Positions 13,504 to 19,377 of a stretch of DNA of 64,000 bases are shown here, piece by piece. Position numbers and translations under genes: made by a program. Each line of letters starts with the position of its first letter. The first letter of the stretch is position 1. The notes under the pieces were generated by a model that had not been told where the DNA came from, did no database searches, and saw nothing but the letters and a program-made list of their open reading frames with translations. The DNA is from Pelagibacteraceae bacterium AG-414-E02 (GTDB lineage: Bacteria > Pseudomonadota > Alphaproteobacteria > Pelagibacterales > Pelagibacteraceae), in the NCBI GenBank assembly GCA_003214615.1, contig QCLK01000005.1, forward strand, positions 1 to 64,000, written 5' to 3'.

Positions 13504-14442
13504 ATGAATCAAACAGCTTTAGTGATAATAAAATCTATGGGAATTGGAGATTTATGTATTTTGATTGCAAACATACATGCAATTAGCAAATCAACAGGTA
13601 AGCCGGTGGTTGTTTTGGCACAAAAAAATACCCAAGCTAACTCAATATTAAAAAATGATCCTCATGTTAAAGAAGTAATTGAACTCGATAAAAAAGGCTT
13701 CTTTAATATTATTAAAAAAATTGAACCTTATAAGTTTAGCCAGTCTTATATTTATAGCGATAGTTTAAGGCTTTATATGATTTCAAAACTATCGGGTATA
13801 AAGCAAATTTTTCATTATAAATTTTTTTCTAAAAGAGGTAAAAATTTTTTTAAGACAGCAAAGAAATTTACTGAAAAAATATTAAATGTAGAAATTAATT
13901 CTCAATCTAAAATCTATTGTAGTAATGATGATATTCAAGAAGCCAAAAAGAGATATAATATTACAGGTAAAACAAAAAACATTATTTGCGGCATCTCAGC
14001 TTCAGGACCTACAAAACGTTGGGAAATAAAAAATTTCATTAAATTGTTTGAAAATCTTAATTCTAAACATGAATGTAGATTTTTTCTTGCAGGTGGAGTT
14101 AAAGACGAAAACTTAATTCAACAAGTTAAAGATTCTTCTATTGGAAAAAACTGTATCTCTCTATCTGAAATGACCATAGCAGAAATAATGCCTATTATAA
14201 GTTCATGCCAATATTGTATTTCGAATGATTCTGGTTTTGCTCATATTTCTTCCGGTTTAAATTTAAAATGTTTAGTCTTGTTCATGGATTCTCCCCCGGC
14301 AGCTTACGGATTGTATAGTAAAAATATATCTATTATTGTTCCGAATGGTCAAACTATTGATACTTGTACTCACAATACACGCGGAAAAGATAAAATATCA
14401 TTTGATGAGGTACTGAAAAGATCTTTGGAAATAATTAATTAA
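13504..14442 (+). CDS. Glycosyltransferase family 9 (heptosyltransferase-like)
   Basis: A 312-residue GT-B protein starting MNQTALVIIKSMGIGDLCI, the GDxxl N-terminal loop of the ADP-heptose:LPS heptosyltransferase family. The C-terminal nucleotide-sugar region shows GISASGPTKRWEIKNF (like GxSGxxKrWP), and CISNDSGFAHISSGLN matches the xxNDSGxxHxA motif. The role is probably transfer of a sugar to a lipid A core or another envelope glycan. An upstream Met at 13441 is rejected because it would overlap the divergent aldolase gene. The 3' end meets the J-protein gene in a shared TTAA. Confidence 0.85.
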   Translation: MNQTALVIIKSMGIGDLCILIANIHAISKSTGKPVVVLAQKNTQANSILKNDPHVKEVIELDKKGFFNIIKKIEPYKFSQSYIYSDSLRLYMISKLSGIKQIFHYKFFSKRGKNFFKTAKKFTEKILNVEINSQSKIYCSNDDIQEAKKRYNITGKTKNIICGISASGPTKRWEIKNFIKLFENLNSKHECRFFLAGGVKDENLIQQVKDSSIGKNCISLSEMTIAEIMPIISSCQYCISNDSGFAHISSGLNLKCLVLFMDSPPAAYGLYSKNISIIVPNGQTIDTCTHNTRGKDKISFDEVLKRSLEIIN

Positions 14443-14951
14443 CTAAAATCATTTTTTAATATTGTTTCTTTAGCTTCGTTTACTATTTGGCTTAAACGCT
14501 CTGTGTTAGAATTTGGATTAACATCAGGATGAATTTTTTTCTGGAGTCCATTTGTAGCTTTGATTACATCTTCTTTGGAACAGCCCTTTTGTAATCCCAA
14601 AATTTTATAAGCCTCTTGCAAAGATAAATTGCTTGAAGGTTGTGACTGGTTAGAACTACCATAGTAAGAAAATCTTCCTGAATTTCTCAAATACTGCAAT
14701 AGTCTCCATAATTGAAATATTTGAATGGCTGTTAAACCTTTAATTTTGAGAACGCTCATTGCTAGAAGAAGCAAAGGAAGTGAAAAAAGAAATCTACCGG
14801 CAATTACAAAAAGAATGGCAAAAATAATTGATAAAACAAAGATTACACCTCTAGTCCCTTTTGCTATTTTTTTGCTACTTGTCTTCGCAAACCAAGAAAG
14901 TAGAACAAAAATCAGGATAAAAATAATAATTCCAAAAAAAACTAAATTCAT
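14439..14951 (-). CDS. Membrane-anchored J-domain protein
   Basis: A 170-residue protein with two to three N-terminal hydrophobic segments (about residues 3-20, 33-52 and 55-70), then a C-terminal J-like domain. The HPD tripeptide lies in KKIHPDVNPNS, preceded by SLQEAYKILGLQKGCSKEDVIKA. J-domains stimulate DnaK ATPase. This arrangement resembles the alphaproteobacterial and mitochondrial Tim14/Pam18-like J-proteins, with the domain at the end of the chain. No zinc-finger or Gly/Phe region is present, so it is not DnaJ itself. It converges on the GT9 gene. Confidence 0.82.
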   Translation of the reverse strand: MNLVFFGIIIFILIFVLLSWFAKTSSKKIAKGTRGVIFVLSIIFAILFVIAGRFLFSLPLLLLAMSVLKIKGLTAIQIFQLWRLLQYLRNSGRFSYYGSSNQSQPSSNLSLQEAYKILGLQKGCSKEDVIKATNGLQKKIHPDVNPNSNTERLSQIVNEAKETILKNDFS

Positions 14952-14969: not shown

Positions 14970-17051
14970 ATGAATATACCAAAATTAAGACAACAGAAAA
15001 CAATCAAAAAATGTCATGGAATTTCATGGGAAGATAATTATGCATGGATTCATCAAGCAAATATATTAGAAGTGCTTAGGGATCCTGCAAAATTAAATTC
15101 TGAGGTTAAAAAATACTTAGAAAAAAATAATGAATATACAGAATATCATTTAAAAGATACTAAAAAATTTCAAAAAAAATTATTTGATGAAATAAAGAAC
15201 AGAATAAAACTTGATGATGAAACTTTACCCTATACAGACAAAAAATATATTTATTGGACAAAAACTACTAAAGAAGCAAATTACTCATTAAAACTTAGAA
15301 AAAAAATAGGAAGCAATAAAATTGAAGAATATTGGTCAGGAGAAAAAGAAAAGGCGAAATTAAAAGCAGAATATTTTGGGATTGGAGATTTAGAAGTTTC
15401 AAACAATGATGAAATGCTTGCCTATTCTTTGGACCTAAAAGGTTCTGAGTATTTTACAATAAATGTACGTAGAATTTCTGATAATAAAATTTTGTCAGAA
15501 GAAATTAAAGAAACCTCAGGAAGTATTACTTGGTCATTAGATGATAAGTATATTTTCTATTCAAAGTTAGACAAATTTCATAGACCGCGAAAAATTTACC
15601 AACATAAAGTTGGAACCTCGCCAGAAAAAGATAAATTAATTTATGAAGAAAAAGACGAAGGTTTTACATGTGGAATTGGAATTAGTTCTGATGAAAAATA
15701 TTACTTTATTGCAACCTCAGATCACACTACATCTGAAATATATTTTTTTAATGTTCATGAAGATAATCCAAAATTAAAATTATTTAAAAAAAGACAAAAG
15801 GAAATAAAATACTCTATAGATTCTTGGAAAGGCAATTTTTATATACATACAAATCTTAACGCGGAAGATTACAAAATCTGTAAATGCAAACATGGAAATA
15901 TTGAAAAATGGGAAAATTTAATCACAGCTACCAACGGTGTTCTTATTGGAAGTTTTGATTTACTTAATGAGTGGATGATACGATCTGAACTTAGAGATGC
16001 TTTATCTAAAATTTACATTAGAAATTTAAATACAAATAAAGAAGAAGAATTATTTATTACTGAGGAAAAAGTAATAAGTATAGGATCTTCGTTAATGCAA
16101 AAAGACAGAAATACAAATAAAATTTATATTGCTTACCACTCTCCAAAAACTCCTGGCAAATCTTATATTTATGATATTATTACGAAAGAAAAAAAACTCG
16201 TAAAAGAAGAAGTTGTGCCTTCTGGTCATAATCCCGAGGATTATATCGTCGAAAGATTAAATTGTAATTCTCATGATGGAAGAAAAATTCCTTTAACAAT
16301 AACTCGTCATAAAAAAACAAAATTAGATGGAAAAGCAAATCTTCTTCTTTATGCTTATGGAAGCTACGGTGCTTCAATGGGACCTGGATTTTCTTCTAGT
16401 AGACTAAGTTTAATTAACAGAAATATAATTTGGGTAACCGCCCATATTAGAGGTGGAATGGAAAGAGGAATGAGTTGGTGGAAAGAAGGAAAAATGCTGA
16501 ATAAAAAAAATACTTTCGAAGATTATATCTCAAGTGCTAAATTTTTAATTGAAAAAAAATATACAGGTAGAGGAAAAATAATTGGTATGGGCGGTTCTGC
16601 TGGCGGATTACTGATGGGCGCTGTTGTTAATCAAGCCCCGCAATTATTCCTTGGAATGATTATGGCTGTACCTTTTGTTGATACACTTACAACAAATTTA
16701 GATCACTCATTACCTTTAACAGTTGGAGAGTTTAATGAGTTTGGAAATGCAAAAGAAAATAAAGAACACTTTGATTATATTCGCTCATACTCTCCTTATG
16801 AAAATATAAAAAAAATGGACTATCCTCATATTTTCATAACAACAAGCTTGAGTGATAATAGAGTTCTGTTTGATGAACCTACAAAATTTACTGCAAAATT
16901 AAGAGACTATAAAACGGATAACAATCTTATGCTTTTAAAAACTGAAATGAAAGCTGGTCACGCAGGAAAAACAGGAAGAGATTCGGCAATTGAAGAAATT
17001 GCTCTAGATTATGCTTTTGCATTAAAAATATCTCAAAAATTAAATACTTAA
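14970..17051 (+). CDS. ptrB: Oligopeptidase B (protease II), S9 family
   Basis: A 693-residue prolyl-oligopeptidase-family peptidase. The N-terminal half (about residues 60-400) is the beta-propeller gate, with the family pieces YAWIHQAN, YSLDLKGSEYFTI and FYSKLDKFHRP. The C-terminal alpha/beta-hydrolase domain has YGSYGASMGPGF, AHIRGGMERG, the nucleophile Ser543 in GMGGSAGGLLMG, and the catalytic His near KAGHAGKTGR. Such enzymes cleave short peptides after basic residues, usually in the cytoplasm, and no signal peptide is visible. It begins 18 bp from the divergent J-protein gene, so the two share a very small promoter region. Confidence 0.93.
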   Translation: MNIPKLRQQKTIKKCHGISWEDNYAWIHQANILEVLRDPAKLNSEVKKYLEKNNEYTEYHLKDTKKFQKKLFDEIKNRIKLDDETLPYTDKKYIYWTKTTKEANYSLKLRKKIGSNKIEEYWSGEKEKAKLKAEYFGIGDLEVSNNDEMLAYSLDLKGSEYFTINVRRISDNKILSEEIKETSGSITWSLDDKYIFYSKLDKFHRPRKIYQHKVGTSPEKDKLIYEEKDEGFTCGIGISSDEKYYFIATSDHTTSEIYFFNVHEDNPKLKLFKKRQKEIKYSIDSWKGNFYIHTNLNAEDYKICKCKHGNIEKWENLITATNGVLIGSFDLLNEWMIRSELRDALSKIYIRNLNTNKEEELFITEEKVISIGSSLMQKDRNTNKIYIAYHSPKTPGKSYIYDIITKEKKLVKEEVVPSGHNPEDYIVERLNCNSHDGRKIPLTITRHKKTKLDGKANLLLYAYGSYGASMGPGFSSSRLSLINRNIIWVTAHIRGGMERGMSWWKEGKMLNKKNTFEDYISSAKFLIEKKYTGRGKIIGMGGSAGGLLMGAVVNQAPQLFLGMIMAVPFVDTLTTNLDHSLPLTVGEFNEFGNAKENKEHFDYIRSYSPYENIKKMDYPHIFITTSLSDNRVLFDEPTKFTAKLRDYKTDNNLMLLKTEMKAGHAGKTGRDSAIEEIALDYAFALKISQKLNT

Positions 17052-17052
17052 T

Positions 17053-17087
17053 CTTGAAATTTTAAAAATCGTTTCTATATAAATAAT
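17053..17087 (+). promoter_or_regulatory. Likely heat-shock (sigma-32/RpoH) promoter of hsp20
   Basis: CTTGAAA at 17053-17059 matches the RpoH -35 consensus exactly. After a 13-base spacer an AT-rich TTCTATAT (17073-17080) could serve as -10; the C-rich part of the classical CCCCATNT is weak. Transcription would then start near 17087, just before the two leader hairpins. This is inferred from sequence only. Confidence 0.5.
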
Positions 17088-17090
17088 TAT

Positions 17091-17140
17091 GAGTTGCCAT
17101 TGTGGGACTCGTAAATAGTACTTGCTTAATGAAAGGAGTA
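17091..17140 (+). promoter_or_regulatory. ROSE-like RNA thermometer in the hsp20 leader
   Basis: Two adjacent hairpins fill the leader. Hairpin I (17091-17110) pairs GAGTTGCCA with TGGGACTC around a 3-base loop. Hairpin II (17119-17140) pairs TACTTGCTT with AAGGAGTA across a 5-base loop (one G-U pair), with G17124 bulged. In it the Shine-Dalgarno AGGAG (17134-17138) is paired with the CTTGCT stretch. A UUGCU sequence facing AGGA with an unpaired G is the hallmark of ROSE elements, which melt on heating to free the ribosome site of small heat-shock genes. The ATG is at 17145. Confidence 0.65.
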
Positions 17141-17144
17141 AATT

Positions 17145-17585
17145 ATGAAAGAACTATCTATATTTAATCAACTAAGACCAGTAACTGTAGGTTTTGACAG
17201 TGTATTCGATAATTTCGAAAGAATGTTTTCTGACGATTTTTTCAGCACTCCGTCAAATTACCCAGCCTACAATATCGTAAAGACAAAAGATAATCATTAT
17301 GATGTTGAAGTTGCGTTGGCCGGATTTAATAAAAAAGATATAAAGGTTAGCTATGCCGACGGACAGTTGTCTATTGAATCAGTTAAACAAGACAAAACTA
17401 AAGAAAAAGATGAAAATGGAAATGTGATTCATCGAGGTATTGCAAAAAGATACTTCAAAAAAAGCTTTAGTGTAGCTGACAATTGTGAGGTTAAAGGTGC
17501 TGAACTAAAGGACGGTTTGCTTAAAGTTTCTTTAGAAAGAATAATTCCAGAAGCACAAAAACCAAGGGTGATTGAAATTAAATAA
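17145..17585 (+). CDS. ibpA: Small heat-shock protein (Hsp20/IbpA family)
   Basis: A 146-residue alpha-crystallin-domain chaperone that holds unfolding proteins for refolding by DnaK/ClpB. The N-terminus starts MKELSIFNQLRPVTVGFD, typical of the IbpA/HspA class (F..L.P.tVGFD). The crystallin domain covers about residues 40-130 with YDVEVALAGFNKKDI, RGIAKRYFKKSF and the GLLKVSLER strand, and a C-terminal I-x-I-type anchor (VIEIK). A strong AGGAG is locked in the hairpin described in the leader entry. A clear terminator follows the stop. It is a single gene transcript with its own heat-shock promoter. Confidence 0.95.
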   Translation: MKELSIFNQLRPVTVGFDSVFDNFERMFSDDFFSTPSNYPAYNIVKTKDNHYDVEVALAGFNKKDIKVSYADGQLSIESVKQDKTKEKDENGNVIHRGIAKRYFKKSFSVADNCEVKGAELKDGLLKVSLERIIPEAQKPRVIEIK

Positions 17586-17599
17586 TCATTCCATAGATA

Positions 17600-17620
17600 G
17601 AGGCGGCTTTAAGTCGCCTC
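17600..17620. terminator. Hairpin terminator between hsp20 and the lipoprotein gene
   Basis: GAGGCGGCT-TTA-AGTCGCCTC forms a 9-pair stem (one G-T wobble) with a 3-base loop, located 15 bp after the hsp20 stop. The T-run after it is weak, so it may act as a terminator or as a 3' stabiliser. It lies between convergent genes and could serve both. Confidence 0.7.
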
Positions 17621-17626
17621 TTGATA

Positions 17627-17929
17627 CTAAAAACATCCCTTGCTAGTAAAACCAACAATCATTTTGTTTTGGTCAACCTCAAATTTTCGTTCACAAGTAA
17701 TGTTGTATTTTTTTTTAGTATATACTAAAAATTTTGACCCTTTGTCGTCATGTACTATCTCATCTGGTTTACCCATTACTATTCTTAGTTCTGATTCTGG
17801 CTGTTGAAGAAATTTACTTAATTTTTCATTTTCTTTTCTAATTGTAGACTCAGATTTTTTTTCAATAGTTTGACAGCCTGCAATTAAGAAAACGAAAGTA
17901 ACAATAAAAAAAATATTGAAAATTTTCAT
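17627..17929 (-). CDS. Small lipoprotein, function unknown
   Basis: A 100-residue protein with a lipoprotein signal: MKIFNIFFIVTFVFLIAGC, giving lipobox IAGC and lipidated Cys19. The mature part starts QTIEKKSEST and contains a short region PESELRIVMGKPDEI...SKFLVY resembling the small SmpA/BamE-like fold that recurs in envelope lipoproteins (G-x-P-D then a strand). The resemblance is weak. It ends with one Cys in the last three residues (KGCF) plus an internal Cys, which could form a disulfide. It is probably attached to the inner leaflet of the outer membrane. Confidence 0.75.
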   Translation of the reverse strand: MKIFNIFFIVTFVFLIAGCQTIEKKSESTIRKENEKLSKFLQQPESELRIVMGKPDEIVHDDKGSKFLVYTKKKYNITCERKFEVDQNKMIVGFTSKGCF

Positions 17930-18090
17930 AGTTTCAACTTAACATAGAATATCAGAAAAAATATAAACAGATATAAACTCTCAAGTTGAATCCTATTCAT
18001 GTTATGCACACCAGATAACACTTATTTAATTGTGACTTCCTTAAAAATCTTTATTAAGGTTACTTCATTAACTTTAGGAGGAAATATCTT
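17930..18090. promoter_or_regulatory. Divergent intergenic region with inverted repeats before the purine permease
   Basis: This is the largest gap in the window (161 bp). It must carry promoters for the lipoprotein (minus) and the permease (plus). It contains three imperfect or perfect dyads. TGTTAT/ATAACA is at 18000-18020. CCTTAA/TTAAGG is at 18039-18059. AAGGTTA/TAACTTT (about 18056-18075) overlaps the second and could be an alternative fold. A strong AGGAGG (18076-18081) sits 9 bases before the ATG. It does not match the known purine riboswitch core. Confidence 0.45.
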
Positions 18091-19377
18091 ATGATGGATA
18101 AATATTTCGACTATAGAAAACATAGAACGGATTTTAAAACAGAAGTTATAGCCGGCGTTTCTACTTTCTTAACAATGGCTTACATATTGTTTTTAAATCC
18201 TGTCATACTTGCTGATGGTGGGTTTGACTTTGGCGGAGTTTTCACAGCTACAGTTTTGGCGACAGCCATTGCCTGTTTCATAGCTGCATTTTACGCTAAA
18301 ACTTGGCCTGTTGGCCTAGCACCTGGAATGGGTATTAACGCATTCATAGCTTACGGCGTTTGTTTGGGTATGGAATATACTCCAGCTGAAGCGCTTGGTG
18401 CTGTACTTGTTGCTGGTGTGCTCTTCTTAATAATTTCACTAACTCCAGTAAGAGCTTGGCTAATCAACTCAATTCCAAAAAGTTTAAAACTTGGAATTGG
18501 TGCTGGAATAGGTTTGTTCTTAGCAATCATTGGTTTTGAAATTATGGGATTGACTGGTGACCATCCAGTTACACTTGTAACTCTTGGTGATCTTAGCAAC
18601 CCATTACTTCTTTTAGGTGCCGGTGCATTTATATCAATGATCGTAATGGAAAAATATAAGATCAAAGGAAACATTATCATTGGAATCATTGCCTTTAGTA
18701 TTATTGCTTGGGTAACTGGTTTAGCAAAATTTAATGGTGTTGCTTCTGCTCCACCTCCAATGACGCACTTGTTTGCATTTGATTTGGGTGCTGCGCTTTC
18801 AGCTTCAATGGTAACAGTAATCTTTACTCTGTTCTTCATTGACTTTTTTGATACTGCAGGAACTTTAACGAGTGTTGCAAATGTTTCGGGTAAACTTGGA
18901 AGAGATGGAAAAATCCAAGATATCGACAAAGCTATGCTTTCAGACAGTGTATCAACTGTTGCGGGTTCGTTATTAGGAACAAGTACAGTTACTACATATG
19001 TAGAGTCTGCTGCTGGTGTAAAAGCTGGTGGAAGAACGGGAATGACTTCTCTTGTAATAGGACTTTTATTTTTGGCTTGTATATTTTTAGCGCCATTAGC
19101 AACGAGTCTTCCAAAAGAAATCGACGGAGCTGCATTGATTTATATTGCAACTCTTTTCGTTCGTAACATTGTGGATATTGAATGGGATGATATTGCTGAA
19201 GCAGGACCTGCGGTCCTTGCTATGATAGCAATGCCATTTACTTATTCAATTTCTCACGGAATTGCTTTAGCATTTATTTCTTATGCAGCGATTAAAATCT
19301 GTACAGGAAAAACTAATGTTAGCCCTGCGATTTGGGTAATAGCAGTAGCAAGCGTAATAAGCTTCGTTGTAGCTTAA
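18091..19377 (+). CDS. Purine permease, NCS2/AzgA (PbuG-like) family
   Basis: A 428-residue inner-membrane protein with about 12-14 hydrophobic segments. Family motifs are AGVSTFLTMAYILFLNP at the N-terminus, GLAPGMGINAFIAY, the LKLGIGAGIGLFLAIIGFE segment, FFDTAGTLTSVAN and GTSTVTTYVESAAGVKAGGRTG. These place it in the guanine/hypoxanthine (AzgA-type) branch of the NCS2 proton symporters rather than the xanthine/uracil branch. The start has tandem ATGs (18091 and 18094) after a strong AGGAGG. Its location before a purine-salvage and oxidation cluster supports purine uptake. A strong terminator follows. Confidence 0.92.
   Translation: MMDKYFDYRKHRTDFKTEVIAGVSTFLTMAYILFLNPVILADGGFDFGGVFTATVLATAIACFIAAFYAKTWPVGLAPGMGINAFIAYGVCLGMEYTPAEALGAVLVAGVLFLIISLTPVRAWLINSIPKSLKLGIGAGIGLFLAIIGFEIMGLTGDHPVTLVTLGDLSNPLLLLGAGAFISMIVMEKYKIKGNIIIGIIAFSIIAWVTGLAKFNGVASAPPPMTHLFAFDLGAALSASMVTVIFTLFFIDFFDTAGTLTSVANVSGKLGRDGKIQDIDKAMLSDSVSTVAGSLLGTSTVTTYVESAAGVKAGGRTGMTSLVIGLLFLACIFLAPLATSLPKEIDGAALIYIATLFVRNIVDIEWDDIAEAGPAVLAMIAMPFTYSISHGIALAFISYAAIKICTGKTNVSPAIWVIAVASVISFVVA

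Follow-up and report, generated by a model that had tools for sequence, protein, structure and literature searches.

Does the short leader of hsp20 in a SAR11 bacterium sense temperature and, if so, to which class of RNA thermometer does it belong? The window analysed here, a 64,000-nt stretch of DNA, stems from a Pelagibacteraceae genome of 1.14 Mb (87% complete), in which a reading of the letters alone had proposed a heat-shock promoter and a minimal two-hairpin ROSE-like thermosensor upstream of hsp20. Based on comparison with relatives, covariance-model searches and folding calculations, we consider it highly probable that the 5' leader of hsp20/ibpA in SAR11 is a ROSE-type RNA thermometer; the evidence for its anatomy and conservation is of a different kind from that for melting, and the two are taken in turn below.

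The hsp20 locus and its predicted promoter

The ORF behind the leader (17145..17585, forward strand, ATG at 17145) encodes a small heat-shock protein of the hsp20/ibpA type with 146 residues, an identity already proposed by the sequence-only reading and borne out by a match to Pfam PF00011 (E 1.4e-17). No other HSP20 gene was found in the genome, and the nearest relatives of the hsp20 product are from Pelagibacteraceae and HIMB114, which places the genome in SAR11. Upstream lies a gene for an S9 prolyl oligopeptidase; downstream are a small reverse-strand ORF and then a Xan_ur_permease gene. Also near the locus, at 14439-14951 on the reverse strand, the window encodes a small protein with a hydrophobic N-terminal part and a C-terminal DnaJ domain. 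Comparison of window positions 14970-19377 with loci L013-L023 showed that, within the genus, hsp20 has been replaced in place: two hsp20 types of ~50% identity are found at a single position with shared, conserved neighbours, as exemplified by L017, in which the peptidase (83%) and the permease (96%) are far closer to those of the window than is Hsp20 (only 48% identical). The hairpin carrying the Shine-Dalgarno (SD) sequence tracks the gene type, while the promoter and hairpin I are common to both.

The predicted promoter comprises a sigma-32 (RpoH)-type -35 box, CTTGAAA (17053..17059, forward strand), which is kept in relatives, and, after a 15-nt spacer, a -10 box, CTATATA (17075..17081, forward strand), read as CCATATA in many relatives. 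Among 96 SAR11 hsp20 leaders, CTTGAA was found in 71, and in 64 it was accompanied by a spaced -10-like box (the spacing, as computed here between hexamers, being 16 or 19 nt in most), vs. a rate of 0.005 in shuffles; the proposed heat-shock promoter thus proved to be conserved across SAR11. A genome-wide search with a promoter pattern yielded 4 loose matches vs. 1 for the control and did not recover the hsp20 promoter, since its -10 box CTATATA falls outside the pattern as written; these matches were set aside. The genome also harbors rpoH, above the curated cut-off. Judged from sequence, the CTTGAAA box, a suitably spaced sigma-32-like -10 box and the presence of rpoH would place hsp20 in the sigma-32 regulon, and we surmise from the same elements that the usual double control, comprising sigma-32 transcription and a thermometer, is in place. 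If transcription starts 7 nt past the -10 box, the leader is ~57 nt long, in agreement with the length first proposed.

Two conserved hairpins and the register of the second

Both hairpins that had been noticed upstream of hsp20 are present, and both elements recur in all 96 SAR11 hsp20 leaders inspected. Hairpin I (17087..17114, forward strand; 28 nt) reads UUAUGAGUU-G-CCA / UGG-GACUCGUAA, with a conserved U(U/C)-G-CC / GG(G/A) step around bulged G17096. Its folding is well beyond chance (z -4.1, with 0/200 shuffles equally stable), as is, to a lesser degree, that of the whole 66-nt leader (z -2.6, 4/200). Most of the covariation signal in the aligned leaders sits in this hairpin, with two-sided changes in 7 of its 9 pairs in a structure-blind MAFFT alignment of 68 leaders and with 98.9% of the cells of helix 1 paired in an alignment of 23.

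Hairpin II, the putative thermosensing hairpin (17119..17140, forward strand), pairs UACUU-G-CUU with AAGGAGUA across the loop AAUGA. It brings the anti-SD CUUGCU (17121..17126, forward strand), which contains the ROSE motif U(U/C)GCU, opposite the Shine-Dalgarno AGGAG (17134..17138, forward strand), such that ACUUGCU pairs with AGGAGU around a single unpaired G, G17124. Taken alone, this hairpin is not significant against shuffles (z -1.5, 17/200 equally good), and its case must therefore be argued from comparison and not from one sequence. CUUGCU is present in 96/96 SAR11 leaders and invariant or nearly so in every row of the 68-leader alignment, in which the U, G, C and U of the motif are invariant, and the SD lies opposite in a conserved register. 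Outer pair 1 appears as C-G, U-G or A-U, and outer pair 2 as A-U, C-G, U-A, U-G or G-U; many SAR11 leaders have A-G or A-A in place of outer pair 2, so that the SAR11 helix is short. Beyond SAR11, covariation extends to the lower stem of this hairpin, which is paired in 15 of 16 hsp20 leaders vs. 7.6 in shuffles. A search for relatives lacking the pairing of TTGCT with the ribosome site, which would have spoken against the proposal, showed the pairing to be kept, with L014 missing the innermost pair only; compensatory changes, also sought on that proposal, proved to be many in hairpin I and, in hairpin II, to occur in the lower stem in other alphaproteobacteria.

Over the leader as a whole, the MAFFT alignment of 23 relatives was 97.4% paired with 7 two-sided pairs, a result that 0/500 shuffles equalled, and sliding the partner strand by one column lowered pairing to 49-63%. 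The 68-leader alignment, which misplaces the SD in some rows, gave 39 two-sided cells vs. 10 in shuffles, and 32 leaders spanning families also supported covariation.

The nearest-neighbour model prefers another register for hairpin II, UUGCUU/GAGUAA, by 1.4 kcal/mol at 37 C, and assigns the bulged core an energy of about +0.9 kcal/mol at 37 C and -1.9 kcal/mol at 15 C, which makes it marginal. We prefer ACUUGCU/AGGAGU because its anti-SD stands in 96/96 SAR11 leaders and its outer pairs covary, whereas the rival register is not kept in relatives. ROSE cores are known to hold non-canonical pairs that nearest-neighbour models overlook (PMC3669281), and we therefore trust the comparative register over the calculated one. 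When codons were included in the folding, an alternative fold arose in which AUAGU of the leader pairs with codons and leaves the SD open; in window-type genes the partner is an ACUAU just inside the coding region, a few codons from its start (window 17114-17165). This predicted fold may represent either a second conformer or a chance pairing.

A protein-blind covariance model (R1) matched 172/198 Pelagibacteraceae genomes, 130/140 good ones and 9/9 genera; almost every genome, including that of the window, had a single match. The strongest test was its search of 386 alphaproteobacterial genomes, because the model was built solely from SAR11 leaders. Beyond the family it matched 14 loci, 11 of them upstream of hsp20, 2 upstream of rpoH and 1 upstream of an ABC-F gene (L136); the last, a long terminator-like hairpin, was judged a chance match. 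In G030, a complete SAR11 genome, there was a second, weak match (G030:C1:775290-775354, E 0.007). Two contigs labelled Acidimicrobiales and Gammaproteobacteria (L039 and L057) carry alphaproteobacterial-looking hsp20 genes with ROSE-type leaders, and are possibly misbinned.

Relation to ROSE elements and occurrence upstream of rpoH

The features by which ROSE-type leaders are described (PMC3669281, PMC4166951) were compared with the leader. It shows pairing of U(U/C)GCU (17122-17126) with AGGAG in the 3'-proximal hairpin, retained in 96/96 relatives; an unpaired G17124 opposite the SD, in a register backed by covarying outer pairs; two stem-loops in the 5' UTR, within the class range of two to four; and a position in front of a gene for a small heat-shock protein (PF00011), the kind of gene to which ROSE is always tied according to a 2014 review (PMC4166951). 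On architecture, promoter and target gene, and on conservation in SAR11, the assignment to ROSE made by the sequence-only reading stands, with the reservation that Rfam does not recognise the element. At gathering cut-off, ROSE_3, ROSE and ROSE_2 matched neither the window nor any of 20 relatives, and a genome-wide scan with ROSE_3 returned nothing up to E 10. In a 201-nt search, ROSE_3 (RF02523) does align end to end with the leader (E 7e-4), with its main features in register, at 26.8 bits vs. a gathering threshold of 43, which is why Rfam misses the element. The SAR11 element is below Rfam's resolution rather than absent.

The leader shares with ROSE_3 the order of hairpin I with a bulged G (its bulged-G step resembles that of ROSE_3), linker, anti-SD with a bulged G, SD and AUG, but is AU-rich and differs in linker and loop lengths. 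With classical ROSE (RF00435; Bradyrhizobium) it has in common the motif of the SD hairpin and the hsp20 target, whereas the classical element has 3-4 hairpins and the SAR11 leader two. In a sister family of the same order (f2; L024-L030), hsp20 is preceded by a longer, apparently three-hairpin leader that contains UUAAUCGCU..AAGGAGGAUUAA and bears a weak resemblance to classical ROSE (21 bits to RF00435 for L025, gathering 45). The closest described system is that of Pseudomonas ibpA, whose 61-62 nt ROSE-like thermometers (Krajewski 2013, PMC3669281) likewise comprise two hairpins only, are transcribed by sigma-32, use their second hairpin to pair U(U/C)GCU with the SD and precede the same type of gene. 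Given these published leaders, the two-hairpin form, which had been put forward as a minimal version, is not new. In contrast to the sensing hairpins of Pseudomonas (-4.1 to -7.6 kcal/mol, with flanking G-C pairs; PMC3669281), the SAR11 core is shorter and AU-rich, and that of the window's leader is marginal. Among the papers searched, we did not find a report of a ROSE-type leader in the SAR11 lineage, and a survey of structured RNAs of P. ubique (Meyer 2009) mentions no thermometer or heat-shock gene. Taken as a leader, the SAR11 element is well supported as a real and conserved member of a thermosensor class that is already known.

A broader covariance model (R2) was run on the order of G143, where it located the element in 20/43 genomes; of its 23 matches, 18 immediately precede an RpoH-like gene. 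The alignment behind R2 already contained the rpoH leaders of L129 and L135, and these matches are thus not fully blind. The core of the rpoH leaders in this order is AUAUUGCU/AGGAUAU, with the compensated variants UUGUUGCU/AGGACAA and CAUAUUGCU/AGGAUAUG. Two-hairpin leaders of this type, whose SD hairpins show compensatory changes, lie directly upstream of rpoH-like genes at L141, L152, L155-L161 and L163-L171 (order of G143) and at L129, L135, L140 and L142; RpoH was identified with curated models for L129 and L135 and by full-length tblastn similarity for the remaining loci. In the papers searched, a ROSE-type leader upstream of rpoH was not found. We think it likely that these leaders make up one lineage-wide family of short ROSE-type elements missed by Rfam, preceding hsp20 in SAR11 and other alphaproteobacteria and rpoH in the order of G143 (43 genomes).

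Probable temperature sensing and protein feedback, and their significance

Temperature sensing by the SAR11 leader, which we infer from family resemblance, is the weakest point of the case. In leader-only folding the SD is mostly paired: its mean unpaired probability over 101 leaders was 0.17 at 5 C and reached 0.33 at 50 C. This is a weak switch, and the window's own leader gave a flat curve (0.25 to 0.26). By this calculation the proven thermometer of E. coli ibpA also hardly melts (0.03 to 0.13). Nearest-neighbour folding, as a model, gives no convincing melting of hairpin II.

What else might the leader do? One could suppose that it is mainly a binding site for Hsp20, whereby aggregation is sensed as in E. 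coli and temperature acts indirectly, through misfolded proteins that titrate Hsp20. In E. coli, translation of ibpA is repressed by its own product via the ROSE-like 5' UTR, in a manner requiring Arg93 (PMC10474464), and that study also noted the Arg in alphaproteobacterial IbpAs; the Hsp20 of the window has the residue equivalent to R93, which is kept in all SAR11 Hsp20s aligned, with position 97 basic in most. In addition, IbpA of P. ubique shifted at unchanged temperature (PMC5069961). However, binding by Hsp20 alone leaves the pairing of anti-SD with SD unexplained, and in E. coli the autoregulation acts alongside the thermometer, not in its place; as a substitute for a thermometer we hold this account to be unlikely. 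The E. coli leader has the target gene and the conserved Arg of the protein in common with SAR11, but is longer and more stable, and self-repression has been demonstrated on the E. coli side. In view of the conserved Arg and of this Arg93-dependent self-repression, feedback by the Hsp20 protein is likely a second layer of control.

Still less probable, to the point of being very unlikely, is that the leader serves as a stable 5' hairpin protecting the mRNA in front of a constitutively weak ribosome site, with pairing that has no sensing role. It would fit with hairpin I as the sole strongly stable part and with the small change in predicted SD pairing across temperatures, but it does not account for a bulged-G anti-SD that is invariant in 96 leaders with covarying outer pairs, nor for the confinement of most element matches to heat-shock genes. 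A third reading, in which hairpin I terminates transcription of the peptidase gene upstream and hairpin II pairs by chance, is scarcely credible and was rejected, since hairpin I, despite lying 35 nt past the peptidase stop codon, has no U run after it, drew no terminator call, is situated past the hsp20 promoter and is kept beside different upstream genes (e.g. L007).

In the thermometer that we favor, sigma-32 would transcribe hsp20 from the CTTGAAA/CTATATA promoter; in the cool, pairing of CUUGCU with AGGAG around one bulged G would hinder the ribosome, and upon warming the weak bulged helix would open to allow Hsp20 to be made. Hairpin I would stay folded, probably aiding in-register folding of hairpin II and shielding the 5' end. 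Published data from Ca. P. ubique fit control after transcription, as IbpA protein rose beyond its mRNA: in stationary phase under sulfur limitation the protein increased 3.74-fold while no significant mRNA change was reported, and in control stationary phase it increased 7.63-fold vs. 3.69-fold for mRNA (PMC5069961). We assume here that SAR11_0181 is the P. ubique gene with this leader.

If the rpoH leaders are what they appear to be, they would take the ROSE class beyond an effector gene and up to the master regulator. SAR11 cells, which count among the ocean's most abundant, possess very few regulators, and their hsp20 element escapes current RNA annotation; a conserved RNA thermometer on hsp20 would provide these streamlined cells with a concrete, testable sensor of warming.
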